A DNA stretch of 48,848 nt, taken from contig JASHRJ010000110.1 of the NCBI GenBank assembly GCA_030037395.1, forward strand, positions 1 through 48,848, given 5' to 3'. The notes below the pieces were generated by a model. It made no database searches. It worked only from the letters and a program-made list of their open reading frames with translations, and was not told where the DNA came from. Numbering within the stretch: the stretch's first letter is position 1; every line of letters starts with the position of its first letter. The position numbers and the translations under genes were made by a program. Positions 41,352-48,848 of this stretch are shown one piece after another. The stretch is from Thermoplasmata archaeon. Its GTDB lineage: Archaea > Thermoplasmatota > Thermoplasmata > Lutacidiplasmatales > UBA184.

Positions 41352-42398
41352 ATGGGGGAGAGCAGGCTCGCGCGGTCGCGGTCCGGCCTTCGCCGCCCCC
41401 GTCGGCTGCGCCGGGGGCGGCGCGGGGTCGTCGCGGTCGTCGGGACGCTGCTGGCGCTGCTCGTGTTCTTCGCGCTGTTCGGGGTGTTCCTCACGCAGTA
41501 CCTTCCGCTCTGGATGACCGACAACGAGAGCCAGCTCTCCAACGAAGCGCAGGGGTCCCTCGCCGCTCTCAAGAACGGGATCGACCTGCAGTACGCGCTC
41601 GGGACGATCCCGATCCTCTCCGTCCCGTTCACGATCAGCTCGGCGAGCGTCCCGCTGCTCGCCCAGCCGACCGAAGGGACCCTCTCCTACCTTACCGGCT
41701 GTCCTTCCGGCTTCTATCCCGGCAACGGTACGCCGGTCGTGCCCGGCTCGTGCTCGTACGCGCGGATCACCTACACGGTCGGTGGTGGTGCCGTCCGGAA
41801 CAACCCGTACGTCGGCTCGGCGCCGTCGAACATCCTGACGTTCTCCCTTCCCAACCGCTACTACACGCCGATCACGTACTACCTCGAGGAGGACGCCGTG
41901 GAGGCGTCGCAGGGCGGGGGCCACCAGCTGATGGTGCTGCCTCCGCCGATCAACGTCAGCAAGACCGACGGCAACGTCACGGTGACCTCGAGCCTGGTGG
42001 ACCTGCTCGGCAACGCATCGACCTACACCGGCCTTGGCTCTAAGGACGTGACGAGCCACCTGGTGTCGAGCTCCCGCATCACGTCGACCGACCGGTTCCT
42101 GAACGGTCCGACCTGCGCTACGAACCTCTCGAGCTGCGTCGCCATGTCGTTCAACGTGACGATCACCCTCGGGGTCCACAGCGTCTGCGCCTGGTACAAC
42201 TATCTCGCGAACGTCACCGTGGGCTCGGGCGCCTCGTCGACCGTCTCCGGCTCGTGGGGCTCCGGTGCGCCGTCGTCGACGGTGTGCACCGCGTCGACCA
42301 CCCAGACCTACGACCTCACCCTCACGCTCCTGAACGTGGACTACGCCACGACGTTCGTCGCGCAGGACCAGCTCGGGTTCAACGCCGGAGGTCTGTAG
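41352..42398 (+). CDS. Type IV pilin-like secreted protein
   Basis: N-terminal basic stretch then RRGVVAVVGTLLALLVFFALFGVFLTQYL hydrophobic helix, Ser/Thr/Asn-rich ectodomain with many sequons; directly before pilus ATPase. Confidence 0.75.
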   Translation: MGESRLARSRSGLRRPRRLRRGRRGVVAVVGTLLALLVFFALFGVFLTQYLPLWMTDNESQLSNEAQGSLAALKNGIDLQYALGTIPILSVPFTISSASVPLLAQPTEGTLSYLTGCPSGFYPGNGTPVVPGSCSYARITYTVGGGAVRNNPYVGSAPSNILTFSLPNRYYTPITYYLEEDAVEASQGGGHQLMVLPPPINVSKTDGNVTVTSSLVDLLGNASTYTGLGSKDVTSHLVSSSRITSTDRFLNGPTCATNLSSCVAMSFNVTITLGVHSVCAWYNYLANVTVGSGASSTVSGSWGSGAPSSTVCTASTTQTYDLTLTLLNVDYATTFVAQDQLGFNAGGL

Positions 42399-42404
42399 GC
42401 TGCC

Positions 42405-44072
42405 GTGTCGAGCTCGTCGTTCCGGGTGAAGATCCCTCGCTCCGCGGGCGGCGAGGGGGCCTCGCCGGGGCCCCCGGCGCCGACGGACGGTGGGTCCCCG
42501 ACGGACCTCCCGGGCACGTTCATCACCGCGATCCCGGCGCTGGCCGGGCCCGAGGTCCGCGAGCTGCAGGTCCGTCCGGTGAGCCCGCCGTACTCGTACG
42601 CGCGGGTCACCTACAACGAGAAGACGAAGGAGTTCGTCTACGAGGTGATCGAGCCGCAACTGTCGGCGCACGAGCGGCAGCTCGTCGCCCACCTCAAGGA
42701 GACCCTGACCAAGATCATCGGCGCCGACATCACGACGCTCTCCGGCACGGACAAGCGAGCGTACCTCCGCGGAGAGGCGGAGGGGTACTTCCGGTCCCGC
42801 GGGGTGCCGCTCAGTCCGCTGTCGCTCGAGCGGATCGTCTACTACGTCCTCCGGGACTTCGTCGGGTACGGCCCGGCCGACGCCCTGATCCTGGATCCGG
42901 AGGTGGAGGACATCTCCTGCGACGGGGTCGGCGTTCCGCTGTTCGTCTTCCACTCGAAGTTCGAGTCGGTGAAGTCGAACGTCGTCTTCGAGGACGAGGA
43001 CTCGTTGAACTCGTTCATCGTGATGCTCGGCCAGCGGTGTCTGAAGTCGGTCAGCGTCTCCGCACCGATCCTCGACGGGACCACGCCCGAGGGCCACCGG
43101 GTCCAGGCGACGTACGCGCGCGAGGTGACGACCCGCGGGGCGTCGTTCACGATCCGGCGGTTCAAGGAGCGACCGTTCACGCCGGTCGATCTCATCGCGA
43201 TGGGCAGCGCGAGCGACGAGATGGTCGCCTACTTCTGGCTGGCGGCCGAGCAGGGGGAGTCCCTGATCATCTGCGGCGGCCCGGCCTCGGGCAAGACGAG
43301 CACGCTCAACGCGATCGCGCTGTTCATTCCCCCGACCTCGAAGATCGTCTCGATCGAGGACACCCGCGAGGTGAACCTGCCGCACGAGAACTGGATCCCC
43401 GGCGCGACGCGGAGCGGCACCGGCGACCGCGGACCCGACGGGAAGGCGGCCGGCGAGGTGGACATGTTCGACCTGGTCCGGGCCGCGCTGCGGCAGCGGC
43501 CGAACTACATCATCGTGGGGGAGGTCCGCGGCAAGGAGACCTACACGATGTTCCAGGCGATGGCGACCGGTCACACGACCTACTCGACGATGCACGCCGA
43601 CAGCGTGAAGTCGATGGTCAACCGCCTGGAGAACCCGCCGATCAACACGCCGCGGATCCTGCTCAGCGCGCTCAACAACGTCGTGATCCAGCTGCAGACC
43701 CGGACCGACAAGGGGGTCGTCCGGCGCCTCAAGCAGGTCCTCGAGATTGTCGGCTTCGAGCCCGAGACGAACGAGCTGATCACGAACACCGTCTACGAGT
43801 GGGACCCGGCGACCGACGGCTTCGTGTTCAAGGGCCACTCGTTCCTGTTCGACAAGATCATGGAGCTCCGCAACTACACCGCCGACGAGATGGACGCGGA
43901 GTTCCGCCGGCGGACCGAGGTGATCCGCTACCTCGTCGACCACAAGATCAACGACTATCGGCAGCTCTGGCAGACGATCGCGCAGTACTACAAGGACCCG
44001 GCGGAAGTCATGGCGCGCGTCCACCCGGCGGGCGCGGCCGGGGCCGCGCCCCCGGCGGCTAAGGGAGGGTAG
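42405..44072 (+). CDS. Type II/IV secretion system ATPase 1 (GspE/TadA-like)
   Basis: IICGGPASGKTSTLNAIALF (Walker A), VSIEDTREVNLPHENW, PNYIIVGEVRGKETYTMFQAMATGHTTYSTMHADS. Confidence 0.95.
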   Translation: MSSSSFRVKIPRSAGGEGASPGPPAPTDGGSPTDLPGTFITAIPALAGPEVRELQVRPVSPPYSYARVTYNEKTKEFVYEVIEPQLSAHERQLVAHLKETLTKIIGADITTLSGTDKRAYLRGEAEGYFRSRGVPLSPLSLERIVYYVLRDFVGYGPADALILDPEVEDISCDGVGVPLFVFHSKFESVKSNVVFEDEDSLNSFIVMLGQRCLKSVSVSAPILDGTTPEGHRVQATYAREVTTRGASFTIRRFKERPFTPVDLIAMGSASDEMVAYFWLAAEQGESLIICGGPASGKTSTLNAIALFIPPTSKIVSIEDTREVNLPHENWIPGATRSGTGDRGPDGKAAGEVDMFDLVRAALRQRPNYIIVGEVRGKETYTMFQAMATGHTTYSTMHADSVKSMVNRLENPPINTPRILLSALNNVVIQLQTRTDKGVVRRLKQVLEIVGFEPETNELITNTVYEWDPATDGFVFKGHSFLFDKIMELRNYTADEMDAEFRRRTEVIRYLVDHKINDYRQLWQTIAQYYKDPAEVMARVHPAGAAGAAPPAAKGG

Positions 44073-44074
44073 CG

Positions 44075-45034
44075 GTGGCGACCACGCACGTCCGCATCGC
44101 CCGCGCCGAACCGGCGGGCCGCCCGATCCGGGTGAAGCGCGGCGAGCAGCCGATCCCCTCCAGCCTCACGGCGTTCGAGCGGTGGGCCTGGAGGACGTTC
44201 GGCGCCCGCGTCCGGGCGAAGGAGCCCAACCTCGTCCTCGAGGACAACCTGGTCAAGGCCCACATGCGCGTGCGCGCCGACGAGTACTTGGCGGGCGTCT
44301 ACGCCACGACCGTCCTGGTCGCGATCGGGACGGCGGTCGTCGGCGTCGCCGGCGGGCTCTACTTCCTCCTCGCCCACGTCCTGCTCTTCGGCGCGCTCCT
44401 CTTCCTCCTGCCGGTGATCGCGACCCCGGCGGCGTTCTTCCTGCTCCAGTCGACCCCCGGCTCCCGGGCCACCGACCGGGGCCGCAAGATCGACCGTAAG
44501 ATCGGACCGGCGATGAGCTTCGTCTCGGCGATGAGCTCGGCCGACGTGAACGTCGACCAGATCTTCAAGGAGCTCGGCCGCCAGAAGATCTACGGCGAGG
44601 TCGCGGAGGAGGCGGCCTGGATCACCCGCGACACGGAGCTGCTGGGCGTCGACATCCTGACCGCGATCCGCCGCGGAGCGCAGCGCACCCCGTCCAAGAA
44701 GTTCCAGGACTTCCTGCAGGGGGTCGTCACCACCGCGACCAGCGGGGGCCAGCTGAAGCCGTACTTCCTGCTGAAGGCCGAGCAGTTCGAGCGCGAGCAC
44801 AAGCTCGAGATCCAGCAGCGCGTTGAGACGATGGGGCTTCTCGCGGAGACGTTCGTCACGGTGGTCGTCGCCTTCCCGCTGTTCCTCGTGATCATCATCG
44901 CGATCTTCGCGATCATCGGCGGGGGTGGGTCGTTCATGCTCGACATCCTCTGGGCGATCGTCGGCGCGATGATCCCGCTCTCGCAGCTCGGGTTCATTTT
45001 CTTCATGTACTCGCTCTCCCAGGAGATGATGTAG
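44075..45034 (+). CDS. Type II/IV secretion membrane protein 1 (TadB/TadC/GspF-like)
   Basis: Multi-TM; FVSAMSSADVNVDQIFKELGRQKIYGEVAEEAAWITRDTELLGVDILTAIRRGAQRTPSKKFQDFLQGVV. Confidence 0.9.
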   Translation: MATTHVRIARAEPAGRPIRVKRGEQPIPSSLTAFERWAWRTFGARVRAKEPNLVLEDNLVKAHMRVRADEYLAGVYATTVLVAIGTAVVGVAGGLYFLLAHVLLFGALLFLLPVIATPAAFFLLQSTPGSRATDRGRKIDRKIGPAMSFVSAMSSADVNVDQIFKELGRQKIYGEVAEEAAWITRDTELLGVDILTAIRRGAQRTPSKKFQDFLQGVVTTATSGGQLKPYFLLKAEQFEREHKLEIQQRVETMGLLAETFVTVVVAFPLFLVIIIAIFAIIGGGGSFMLDILWAIVGAMIPLSQLGFIFFMYSLSQEMM

Positions 45035-45036
45035 CC

Positions 45037-46005
45037 ATGGCGACGGCCACCGCCCCGGCCTCGGTCCGGCGCGTGCGGGAGCTCGCCGCCGGCCCGACGG
45101 CCGAGTCCCGCGGGCTCAGCCGGGAGATCGTCTGCCTGATCGGCGGGGCGGTCGCCGCCGTCGCGCTGTGGGTCGTCGCCGCCCTGAACTACACGGGGAC
45201 GCTCTCGATCCAGCTGCGCCCCGGCGAGGGGGCGGGCACGAACCCGATGCTCGACTTCCTCGTGCTCGGGCTCCTCTGCCTCATCGCGCCGTACGGGTTC
45301 GCGATGAGCGAGAAGCAGCGGCGGATCGGGAAGATCGAGGACCGCCTCCCGGACTTCCTGCGGGACGTCGCGGAGGCCGGCCGCTTCGGGATGACCCTCT
45401 CGGACGCGATCGTCGTCGCGAGCACCGGCCGCTACGGGCTCCTGACGGACGAGATCAAGAAGATGGCCAGCCAGCTCGAGTGGGGCGTCCCCGTCGCGAC
45501 CGCGCTCCGGCTGTTCGAGGAGCGCGTCCCGACGCCGCTCGTGCAGCGGGTCGTCTCCATCGTCACCCGGGCGAACGAGGCGGGCGGGAGCGTCGCGGAC
45601 GTGCTCTCGATGGTCGCCCACGACACCCGGGAGGCGCAGCTCTCCGAGCAGTCCCGCCGGATCTCGATGCTGACGTACGTGACGGTGATCTACATCGCGT
45701 TCTTCGTGTTCATCGTCACCGTCTACATCATGGCGGCGATTTTCCTGCCGCAGATGATCGTCGCAGGCGAGGGGGTCAGCTCGTCGAACCTCGGCTCCGT
45801 GGGCGGCGTCTCGATCCAGTTCGCCTACGTGCCGATCCTGTTCCTCGCGTTCTTGGTCGCCGTCATCGTGCACGCGGTCGGCGACGGCATCATGGCCGGC
45901 GTCCTCTACAACGGGCGGCTGGCGGAGGGGCTGCAGCACGCGACGATCATGCTGTCGGTCGGCTGGCTGATGATGCGCTTCTTCGTGCCGATCCTGCACA
46001 CCTAG
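45037..46005 (+). CDS. Type II/IV secretion membrane protein 2 (TadB/TadC/GspF-like)
   Basis: DRLPDFLRDVAEAGRFGMTLSDAIVVASTGRYGLLTDEIKKMASQLEWGVPVATALRLFEERVPTPLVQRVVSIVTRANEAGGSVADVLSMVAHD. Confidence 0.92.
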   Translation: MATATAPASVRRVRELAAGPTAESRGLSREIVCLIGGAVAAVALWVVAALNYTGTLSIQLRPGEGAGTNPMLDFLVLGLLCLIAPYGFAMSEKQRRIGKIEDRLPDFLRDVAEAGRFGMTLSDAIVVASTGRYGLLTDEIKKMASQLEWGVPVATALRLFEERVPTPLVQRVVSIVTRANEAGGSVADVLSMVAHDTREAQLSEQSRRISMLTYVTVIYIAFFVFIVTVYIMAAIFLPQMIVAGEGVSSSNLGSVGGVSIQFAYVPILFLAFLVAVIVHAVGDGIMAGVLYNGRLAEGLQHATIMLSVGWLMMRFFVPILHT

Positions 46006-46012
46006 AGGGACG

Positions 46013-47758
46013 ATGGCCGGCGGAACCGATACCGAAAGCCCGTCCGCGGACGACCCCACGGGCGCACCGGCGACGAAGGCCGGGCGGCCGTTCTTCAACC
46101 CGTGGCTCCGGCTCGGCGCGGCGCTCCGGCACGGCTCGGCGGGCCCGCGACCCGTCAAGCTCGCGCGCCTCGGCGTCTCCGGCCAGGGCTCCGGCGAGGT
46201 GACGCCGATCCCGCCGCTCGACGACCCGGCGGTCCAGCAGCTCGAGCTCGTCCCGATCCTGCCGGGGTTCTCGTTCGTCCGCATCTCCTACCACACGCAT
46301 CGCAACGAGCACCTGTACGAGGTGATCGAGCCGCCGCTCTCGCCGCTCGAGCGGGACCTCACGACGCGGCTGCGCGCGGCCCTGATCTCGGAGTTCGAGC
46401 CGCTCCCCGAGCACGACGCCGAGACGAAGGCGAACGAGCTCCGCAAGATGGTCGATCGGATGCTGGCGGCCTGGCAGCTCTCGCCGGGGCCGACGACGAA
46501 GGGACGGATCCTCTACCACCTCGACCGGGACTTCATCGGCTACGGACGGGTCGAGGTGCCGATGGTCGACAGCGAGGTCGAGGACATCTCGTGCGACGGG
46601 GTCGGGATCCCGCTGTACATCTACCATCGGAAGTACGGCTCGATCCGCTCGAACCTCAAGTTCACGAGCGCCGAGGAACTCGACGACTACGTCATCTGGC
46701 TGGCCCAGCGCTCGGGCAAGCACATCTCCGTCGCCAATCCGATCCTGGACGCCACGGTGCCGGACGGCTCGCGGCTGCAGGCGACGCTCGGCAAGCACGT
46801 CACCAAGCGCGGCAGCTCGTTCACGATCCGGCGGTTCCGGGACAACCCGTTCACTCCGGTCGACCTGCTGAAGTTCCGCACGATGAGCCCCGAGATGATG
46901 GCGTACCTGTGGATCGCCATCGAGACCGGGCAGTCGATGATGGTGTGCGGCGGCACCGCGAGCGGCAAGACGACCACCCTCAACGCGACCCTGCTGTTCA
47001 TCCCGCCGCAGATGAAGATCGTCTCGATCGAGGACACGCGCGAGCTGAACCTGCCGCACGAGAACTGGGTCCCGTCGCTCACGCGGGGCGGCTACGGCAC
47101 GAAGAACGCCGTGAGCGGCAAGGCCCCGGGCGAGATCGACATGTTCGACCTCCTCGCGGCCGCGCTCCGCCAGCGGCCGCAGTACCTGATGGTCGGGGAG
47201 GTCCGGGGCGCGGAGGCGTTCATCGTGTTCCAGGCGATGGCGACCGGCAAGACCTGCTACACGACGTTCCACGCGGAGAGCGTGAGCGCGATGGTCCACC
47301 GCATGGAGAACCCGCCGATCTCGCTCCCCCGCTCGCTGGTCTCCGCCCTCAACCTCGTGCTGCTCCAGCGGCAGGTGAAGGTCGGGCAGAAGATGACCCG
47401 CCGGGTCCAATCGCTCACGGAGATCGTGGGCCTCGACCCCGAGACCAACGAGCTGATCACGAACTCCGTCTACTCGTGGAACCCGGCCGACGACACGTTC
47501 CTGTTCTCGGGCCACTCGTACATCTACGAGCGGGTCGCGCTGATGCGGAACTGGACGATGAAGGAGATGGAGCGCGAGGTTCGCAACCGCGTCGAGATGC
47601 TGGACGCGATGATGTCCCGCGACGCTCGGGCGACCCGCCAGCACCCCTACACGCACCGCGACGTCGGCCAGATGGTCTCCTTCTACTACAAGGAACCCGA
47701 GAAGGCGCTCGCCGAGGCGCAGGCGGAGCTCGCGCGGAACCCGCGGCCCCCGCGGTAG
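46013..47758 (+). CDS. Type II/IV secretion system ATPase 2 (GspE/TadA-like)
   Basis: MVCGGTASGKTTTLNATLLF, VSIEDTRELNLPHENW, PQYLMVGEVRGAEAFIVFQAMATGKTCYTTFHAES; paralogous to ATPase 1. Confidence 0.95.
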   Translation: MAGGTDTESPSADDPTGAPATKAGRPFFNPWLRLGAALRHGSAGPRPVKLARLGVSGQGSGEVTPIPPLDDPAVQQLELVPILPGFSFVRISYHTHRNEHLYEVIEPPLSPLERDLTTRLRAALISEFEPLPEHDAETKANELRKMVDRMLAAWQLSPGPTTKGRILYHLDRDFIGYGRVEVPMVDSEVEDISCDGVGIPLYIYHRKYGSIRSNLKFTSAEELDDYVIWLAQRSGKHISVANPILDATVPDGSRLQATLGKHVTKRGSSFTIRRFRDNPFTPVDLLKFRTMSPEMMAYLWIAIETGQSMMVCGGTASGKTTTLNATLLFIPPQMKIVSIEDTRELNLPHENWVPSLTRGGYGTKNAVSGKAPGEIDMFDLLAAALRQRPQYLMVGEVRGAEAFIVFQAMATGKTCYTTFHAESVSAMVHRMENPPISLPRSLVSALNLVLLQRQVKVGQKMTRRVQSLTEIVGLDPETNELITNSVYSWNPADDTFLFSGHSYIYERVALMRNWTMKEMEREVRNRVEMLDAMMSRDARATRQHPYTHRDVGQMVSFYYKEPEKALAEAQAELARNPRPPR

Positions 47759-47759
47759 C

Positions 47760-48665
47760 GTGGCGGCGCGGCGGCCGCCGGGCGGGCCGCGGGCCCGACC
47801 GGACCGTCCGTTCGCCGAGATCCCGGTCGGACCCGAACGCGCGGTCCGTCTCTGGAACGAGGACGCGCTCGCGGCCCTGCGCCGCCGCGCCCCCCGACCT
47901 ACGGTCGTCGTCACGAGCCCGCCCTACAACCTCCGGGTGCCGTACCGCAGCTACCGGGACGCCCGACCTCGGGCGGAGTACCTGGCCTGGATCCGGCGCC
48001 TCGGGGCGACGGTCGCGGACGTCCTGGACGGGCCCGGCTCCTTCTTCCTCAACGTCGCCGGCTCGCCGAAGGATCCGTGGCTCCCGTGGGACGCCGCCCG
48101 CGAGGTGGGCCGCTCCCTCGTCCTGCAGAACGTCCTGCACTGGATCAAGTCGATCGCCATCGACCGGCGGGCGCTCGGCGTCCGGGGGGCCGGCCCGCGG
48201 GAGGTCGCGGTGGGCCACTACAAGCCGCTCTCCAGCGCCCGGTACGTCCACGGCGCGCACGAGTACGTCTTCCAGTTCACCCACGCGGGCGACGTTCCGA
48301 TCGACCGGCTCGCGATCGGCGTGCCGTACCGCGACCGCTCGAACGTGCGCCGCTGGCGGCGACCCGCCTCGGAGCTGCGGTGCCGGGGGAACACGTGGTT
48401 CCTGCCGTACCCCACGATCCGCTCGCGCGCGCGGGACCGCCCGCACCCGGCGACGTTCCCGGTCGAGCTGCCGGAGTGGTGCTTCCGGCTCCACGGGGTC
48501 GGCCGGATCCGCCAGGCGGCGGACCCGTTCGTGGGGATCGGCGCGAGCGCCGTGGCGGCCGCCCGCCTCGGCCTGGACTTCGTCGGGTTCGATCTGGACC
48601 CAGGGTACCTCGCGGTCGCCGCCGAGCGCGTCCGGGCCGTACGGGGCTTGGCCCCTCCGGCCTAG
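47760..48665 (+). CDS. Site-specific DNA methyltransferase (N4-cytosine/N6-adenine, TSPPY type)
   Basis: VVVTSPPYNLRVPYRSY near N-term and ADPFVGIGASAVAAARLGLDFVGFDLDPGYLAVAAERV near C-term (motif IV before motif I order). Confidence 0.9.
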   Translation: MAARRPPGGPRARPDRPFAEIPVGPERAVRLWNEDALAALRRRAPRPTVVVTSPPYNLRVPYRSYRDARPRAEYLAWIRRLGATVADVLDGPGSFFLNVAGSPKDPWLPWDAAREVGRSLVLQNVLHWIKSIAIDRRALGVRGAGPREVAVGHYKPLSSARYVHGAHEYVFQFTHAGDVPIDRLAIGVPYRDRSNVRRWRRPASELRCRGNTWFLPYPTIRSRARDRPHPATFPVELPEWCFRLHGVGRIRQAADPFVGIGASAVAAARLGLDFVGFDLDPGYLAVAAERVRAVRGLAPPA

Positions 48666-48848
48666 CGTCCCGATCCGGTCTCGTCCGCGCCGCCGGACCC
48701 GTCGCCCGCCCCCGGCGGGCTCCACGTCTTCATCGGGGTGCGGCGCACCCCGGCCGCGGCGGCAAAGGCGTTCTTCGTACCTTCCTTCGCGCGGTGACCG
48801 GCGCTCACCACGGCGTCGCGCGCGGCGCCGCCGGCCCGGGCGGCCCCC
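48663..48848 (-). CDS. C-terminal fragment of an Ala/Gly-rich protein truncated at window edge
   Basis: Open minus frame to the edge: GAARAGGAARDAVVSAGHRAKEGTKNAFAAAAGVRRTPMKTWSPPGAGDGSGGADETGSGR*. Weak. Confidence 0.3.

Follow-up and report, generated by a model that had tools for sequence, protein, structure and literature searches.

This locus raises two questions: why an archaeal type IV pilus operon should encode two motor ATPases, and whether the DNA methyltransferase gene at its 3' end has any functional tie to the pilus. The window analyzed here is the whole of contig C104 (48,848 nucleotides), which belongs to a Thermoplasmata genome of 1.58 Mb in 140 contigs that is 83.8% complete. 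The original prediction had placed six co-directional genes near the end of this window, and their positions were confirmed, together with those of a convergent gene, as follows:

41352..42398, + strand: ORF encoding a pilin-like protein of 348 aa, with a class III-type signal, then a long N-terminal helix and a beta-rich head
42405..44072, + strand: ATPase1 (motor 1), GTG start; T2SSE and PilB3_C domains; GKT followed by S; His-box MATGH
44075..45034, + strand: platform half 1, the N-terminal half of FlaJ/ArlJ, like CdiPFa; T2SSF
45037..46005, + strand: platform half 2, the C-terminal half of FlaJ/ArlJ, like CdiPFb; T2SSF
46013..47758, + strand: ATPase2 (motor 2); T2SSE; P-loop GGTASGKTTT; first His-box residue K, not H
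47760..48665, + strand: solitary beta-class DNA amino-methyltransferase, GTG start; TSPPYN before DPFVGIG
48662..48848, - strand: 3' part of a small conserved gene that runs convergently (homologue of L040:10588-11031) and closes the operon

According to ORF calling, the intergenic gaps across the six genes are 6, 2, 2, 7 and 1 bp, the methyltransferase starting 1 bp past the ATPase2 stop. Judged by this spacing, the six genes are likely to form one transcript, and the predicted single operon was thus supported; the six-gene order also proved to be conserved in related genomes. The remainder of the convergent small gene is carried by contig C132, whose first 17 bases equal the last 17 of the window, an overlap that is weak by itself, with the joining backed by the continuity of the small gene.

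The N-terminus of the pilin-like protein has a class III-type signal (RRG followed directly by VVAVVGTLLALLVFF), and this region with its motif is common to homologues in other families. In the AlphaFold model (mean pLDDT 82), a 60-residue helix (residues 24-83) is followed by the beta-rich head. No Pfam or NCBIfam entry matched the protein, and the name "pilin-like" stays qualified, since a fold search of the PDB returned no credible match. In 25 loci from 19 other Thermoplasmata families, a pilin-like gene was found upstream of the motor and platform genes in 19 and downstream in two (both in family f9), and was undetected in four. A search of the same genome for a prepilin peptidase gave one match (C134:8167-8337), which passes the cut-off only when neighboring pieces are summed.

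Each of the two genes between the ATPases encodes a single T2SSF domain, as expected for a FlaJ/TadC-type platform of archaeal type IV pilus machinery. The original prediction had described them as two TadB/TadC-like proteins, a description that needs correction: against the ArlJ profile (555 positions), half 1 matches positions 5-243 and half 2 positions 311-543. These matches are complementary, and both genes therefore represent one FlaJ/ArlJ-like platform split into its N- and C-terminal halves.

As predicted, both ATPases are intact and diverged. Each matches T2SSE with an E value of about 1e-33, retains Walker A and Walker B, and has as its nearest solved structures 2oap and FlaI (4ii7/4ihq), which places the two among the FlaI/GspE-family ATPases of archaeal type IV pilus machinery. 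Their bit scores are about 400 and 280-307 to 2oap and FlaI versus about 22-39 to PilT/PilU chains, so neither motor is closer to PilT than to FlaI/GspE. The differences between them are fixed. In motor 1, none of the 37 sequences has T after the P-loop GKT (the residue is S, A, G or C), whereas all 37 of motor 2 have it, as in FlaI, one leading-lysine-distal change excepted. Conversely, the first His-box position is H in all 37 sequences of motor 1 and K, T, Q or R in all 37 of motor 2, whereas the second histidine (T-x-H-A) is retained by both. Outside the P-loop, 11 alignment positions separate motor 1 from motor 2 with at least 93% agreement each way, in a comparison that leaves out the fast-evolving lineages. 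ATPase1 is thus the motor with an altered P-loop, and ATPase2 is the one with a FlaI-like P-loop and without the first His-box histidine, a pattern consistent with specialized, non-redundant motors.

The original prediction had taken two ATPases in one pilus locus to be unusual. This proved wrong, as in Thermoplasmata they are the rule, and reports on Cuniculiplasma and Aciduliprofundum had already described them. All 25 loci from the 19 other families have the genes in an identical order, namely motor 1, platform N-terminal half, platform C-terminal half, motor 2. Of 40 genomes that belong to the class but not to the genus of the window, 32 have both motors, and in 31 of these the two are on the same contig with starts about 3.5-4.3 kb apart. 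The two-motor locus is missing from families f8 and f19 (five genomes, 99% complete), and it is therefore widespread but not universal. In a quick tree with FlaI as outgroup, motor 1 formed a single clade (SH-aLRT 99) and so did motor 2, at moderate support (88), with fast-evolving lineages of the genus appearing as long branches. ATPase2 thus groups with its linked homologues and not with an unlinked secretion system, and the third ATPase of this genome falls outside both motor clades. Since each motor has its own clade, the two are paralogues, and their duplication most likely preceded the diversification of the class.

Several observations stand beside these results. The third T2SSE ATPase (L245, G000:C3) has weak platform-like matches alongside and marks a second, divergent secretion or pilus locus. 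Genome G075, a single contig of 1486778 bases (L234, L242), encodes a FlaI-type ATPase apart from its two-motor block. Within the genus of the window, one sub-lineage (L046, L049, L131, L134, L179-L181, L183) combines fast-evolving motors and platforms with a normally evolving methyltransferase.

The closest described system is the CdiP pilus of Cuniculiplasma divulgatum (PMC12448462), likewise from Thermoplasmata, in which CdiPE1/CdiPE2 and CdiPFa/CdiPFb are encoded in one operon. By gene arrangement the present locus is of the same type, a single operon holding two paralogous ATPases and a two-part platform; however, the CdiP pilins lie about 500 kb off, whereas here a pilin-like gene heads the operon, and no methyltransferase was reported for CdiP. 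In that 2025 study, the two-ATPase operon was described as unique, and it was called enigmatic why a second ATPase should be needed. The locus of Aciduliprofundum boonei (Makarova et al. 2016, PMC4858521) also has two distinct ATPases and a single pilA-like pilin gene, but the ATPases were mentioned in passing, not as a feature of the class, and no methyltransferase was mentioned. The Sulfolobus Aap pilus and the archaellum (FlaI/FlaJ) share the FlaI/GspE-family motor and the FlaJ-family platform, but they use one motor and one fused platform protein, and Aap additionally has AapX. The paper describing the order Lutacidiplasmatales, which covers UBA184 and an AcS genome, reports that the order is without archaellum genes and mentions neither pili nor methyltransferases. 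Two-ATPase loci themselves are therefore known from two species, and what is new here is their breadth (about 20 families) and the diagnostic residues.

Why are two motors kept? Since they have kept different catalytic motifs, the two most likely have different jobs on a shared platform, for example assembly versus retraction, alternate drive, or work in a mixed ring. The first of these options, with ATPase2 acting as a PilT-like retraction motor, draws on twitching bacterial pili, which typically have two motors, and on the fact that the paralogues are fixed and diverged. However, both motors are of the FlaI/GspE type and far from PilT in sequence, and the FlaI-like P-loop sits in motor 2, the altered one in motor 1. 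Moreover, the only two-motor pilus studied, that of C. divulgatum, shows adhesion and no twitching, and in Sulfolobus pili are retracted although a PilT homologue is lacking (PMC12448462, PMC11178785). We therefore regard a PilT-like ATPase2 as possible but doubtful. That both motors build one mixed hexamer with non-equivalent active sites appears somewhat less probable still: the fixed deviations in the two catalytic motifs are complementary, and the motor genes flank the platform halves in a fixed order, but the proposal is a purely inferential one. A division of labor of some kind between the motors remains the most likely reading of their sequences.

The last gene of the operon encodes a protein that matches N6_N4_Mtase (2.9e-24) and belongs to the beta-class DNA amino-methyltransferases (PF01555, with an SPPY-type motif before DPFxGxG). 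In a fold search its best PDB match was M.BceJIV, followed by a bdelloid N4C enzyme, the PvuII and HpyAVI methylases, and CcrM, the identity with the best solved enzymes being about 24%. Most genomes of the genus containing UBA184 (order Lutacidiplasmatales) carry this gene at about 56-80% identity; the same-genus loci include public records UBA184, UBA61 and the AcS/SubAcS series, names that suggest this placement for the genome of the window. In the methyltransferase tree the sequences of the genus fall into a single clade (100/99), whose sister group is a pair of Armatimonadetes sequences (97/89). Copies from Thermoplasmata family f11 are not sisters in the best tree, although a joint clade with the genus was not rejected (AU p 0.149). 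This topology indicates that the gene was gained once in the genus, probably from a bacterial donor. Its Ka/Ks values (0.22-0.30 versus relatives at 74-80% identity, 0.47 versus the more distant G029) point to purifying selection. Plasmid and phage copies were found as distant ones only. Two loci that have 58-59% identical methyltransferases and no pilus (L135, L152) were considered as members of the genus and rejected, since they look bacterial by gene content and tree position.

Two peculiar copies were also noticed. One genome of the genus has an additional methyltransferase (L039, G045:C94) akin to the f11 copies; this may be contamination, the genome being 8% contaminated. In G029, the most complete relative, conserved residues lie in the methyltransferase frame upstream of any ATG, GTG or TTG (L040:9595-9752).

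No recurrent neighbor was found within 5 kb of bacterial, thaumarchaeal or other archaeal homologues outside the genus, and therefore no restriction enzyme partner; within the genus no adjacent endonuclease was recognized. The enzyme resembles in this respect CcrM, M.BceJIV and the orphan methylases of halobacteria, which are also conserved amino-methyltransferases with no adjacent nuclease, but it differs from them in its low identity to the best solved enzymes and in its location in a pilus operon. It would probably recognize a short sequence motif and mark the DNA of its own cell there.

Does this location mean that the enzyme serves the pilus? The original prediction had connected the methyltransferase with DNA uptake or self-marking, and the linkage on which this was built did hold in relatives. 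In a set of 69 distinct methyltransferases with at least 56% identity, a pilus ATPase lies upstream on the same strand in 64, the other five being four non-genus contigs and one contig end, so that all 64 resolvable genus loci are linked; in 60 of the 64 the ATPase is within 350 nt of the start of the methyltransferase alignment. In most species the methyltransferase starts no more than about 50 nt from the point where motor 2 ends, and several lineages allow a four-base start/stop overlap. A fusion or frameshift joining ATPase2 to the methyltransferase was considered and rejected, as the long upstream open frames of some species are off the ATPase2 frame or closed by stops and separate starts occur nearly everywhere. 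There was no clean case of pilus genes without the methyltransferase (the contigs of G016 and G046 end in or just after ATPase2), while G048, G007, G036 and others, in which no pilus ATPase was found, have low completeness and contig ends.

As a control for gene order, the rest of the window was compared with 40 kb upstream of the locus in four relatives. Apart from gaps and a few displaced matches, matches in window order start at about 1.4 kb (G001), 10.5 kb (G060), 15.7 kb (G022) and 26 kb (G018) and continue to the window end, so the order is largely frozen over tens of kilobases between species with a protein identity of no more than about 40-85%. The genes on either side also largely keep their order throughout the genus, namely UMP kinase, adenylate kinase and ACT upstream and the small gene, VWA, AAA and S3Ae downstream. 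Of these, ACT, the small gene, VWA, AAA and S3Ae match the methyltransferase in their degree of conservation. Thus the adjacency of pilus and methyltransferase adds little independent evidence. In addition, spacers of about 0.85 kb (G017), 1 kb (G106), 1.2 kb (G056) and 4.9 kb (G039) set motor 2 apart from the methyltransferase in four species. The spacer of G106 contains a hydrolase-like frame and that of G056 an aldo-keto-reductase-like frame on the opposite strand, both names being read off translations rather than taken from a family search. The predicted functional link was therefore weakened, because unrelated neighbors keep the same order and sequence intervenes in these four species.

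As a separate observation, all across the genus the opposite strand immediately downstream encodes a VWA protein together with an AAA ATPase of the PrkA-like type (L040:11093-14426 and homologues); VWA and MoxR-type ATPases have been tied to archaeal pilus loci by Makarova et al. (PMC4858521).

A functional tie, in which DNA is taken up or exchanged through the pilus, with the enzyme marking either the incoming DNA or that of the cell itself, would fit the genus-wide linkage, the tight co-directional spacing and the convergent orientation of the next gene downstream, and it has precedents: type IV-like pili are needed for transformation in two methanogens (PMC10133366), and the competence-induced enzyme DpnA has such a marking role in pneumococcus (PMC3573125). 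It is set against the equal conservation of unrelated neighbors, the spacers in four species, the absence of pilus linkage for homologues outside the genus, and the fast lineages, whose motors fall to 44-50% identity with those of the window while the methyltransferase still shows 60-65%. The ComEC channel was found in none of 26 genomes, which says little about uptake, since naturally competent archaea without ComEC exist (PMC10133366). On balance, a mechanistic role of the methyltransferase in the pilus or in DNA uptake has no more than co-directional proximity in its favor, and we consider it improbable. Slightly less probable still is that the enzyme is half of a restriction-modification system with its nuclease encoded elsewhere or lost: its fold and sequence are of the beta class, which includes restriction-linked enzymes such as the PvuII methylase, but its homologues have no conserved neighbor and its long-term conservation across the genus resembles that of orphan enzymes, as in halobacteria (PMC6471742).

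Taken together, these observations led us to propose, with reasonable though not full confidence, that the locus combines a two-motor pilus machine having specialized motors with a solitary methyltransferase inserted once and kept in place by frozen gene order. The first five genes would constitute the form that archaeal type IV pilus machinery takes in Thermoplasmata, built of a pilin-like protein, a FlaJ-type platform made as two proteins, and two co-encoded FlaI/GspE-family motors derived from a duplication that preceded diversification of the class. The methyltransferase, most likely of bacterial origin, would have arrived at the 3' end of this operon in the genus and is probably translated from the pilus transcript, its position reflecting a single insertion and its co-expression being a by-product. 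With the four-gene block present in about 20 families and its paralogues differing at fixed catalytic residues, a supposed oddity becomes what would be an ancestral design, and the residues suited to mutation are identified. The methyltransferase also teaches caution, as near-perfect adjacency over dozens of species meant little once the surrounding order proved to be frozen. The most far-reaching version, an obligate pair of non-equivalent motors joined in one genus to a pilus-coupled, self-marking methyltransferase acting on pilus-imported DNA, seems very unlikely to us. If true, the motor pair, whether antagonistic or assembled in a mixed ring, would be an archaeal invention parallel to PilB/PilT.
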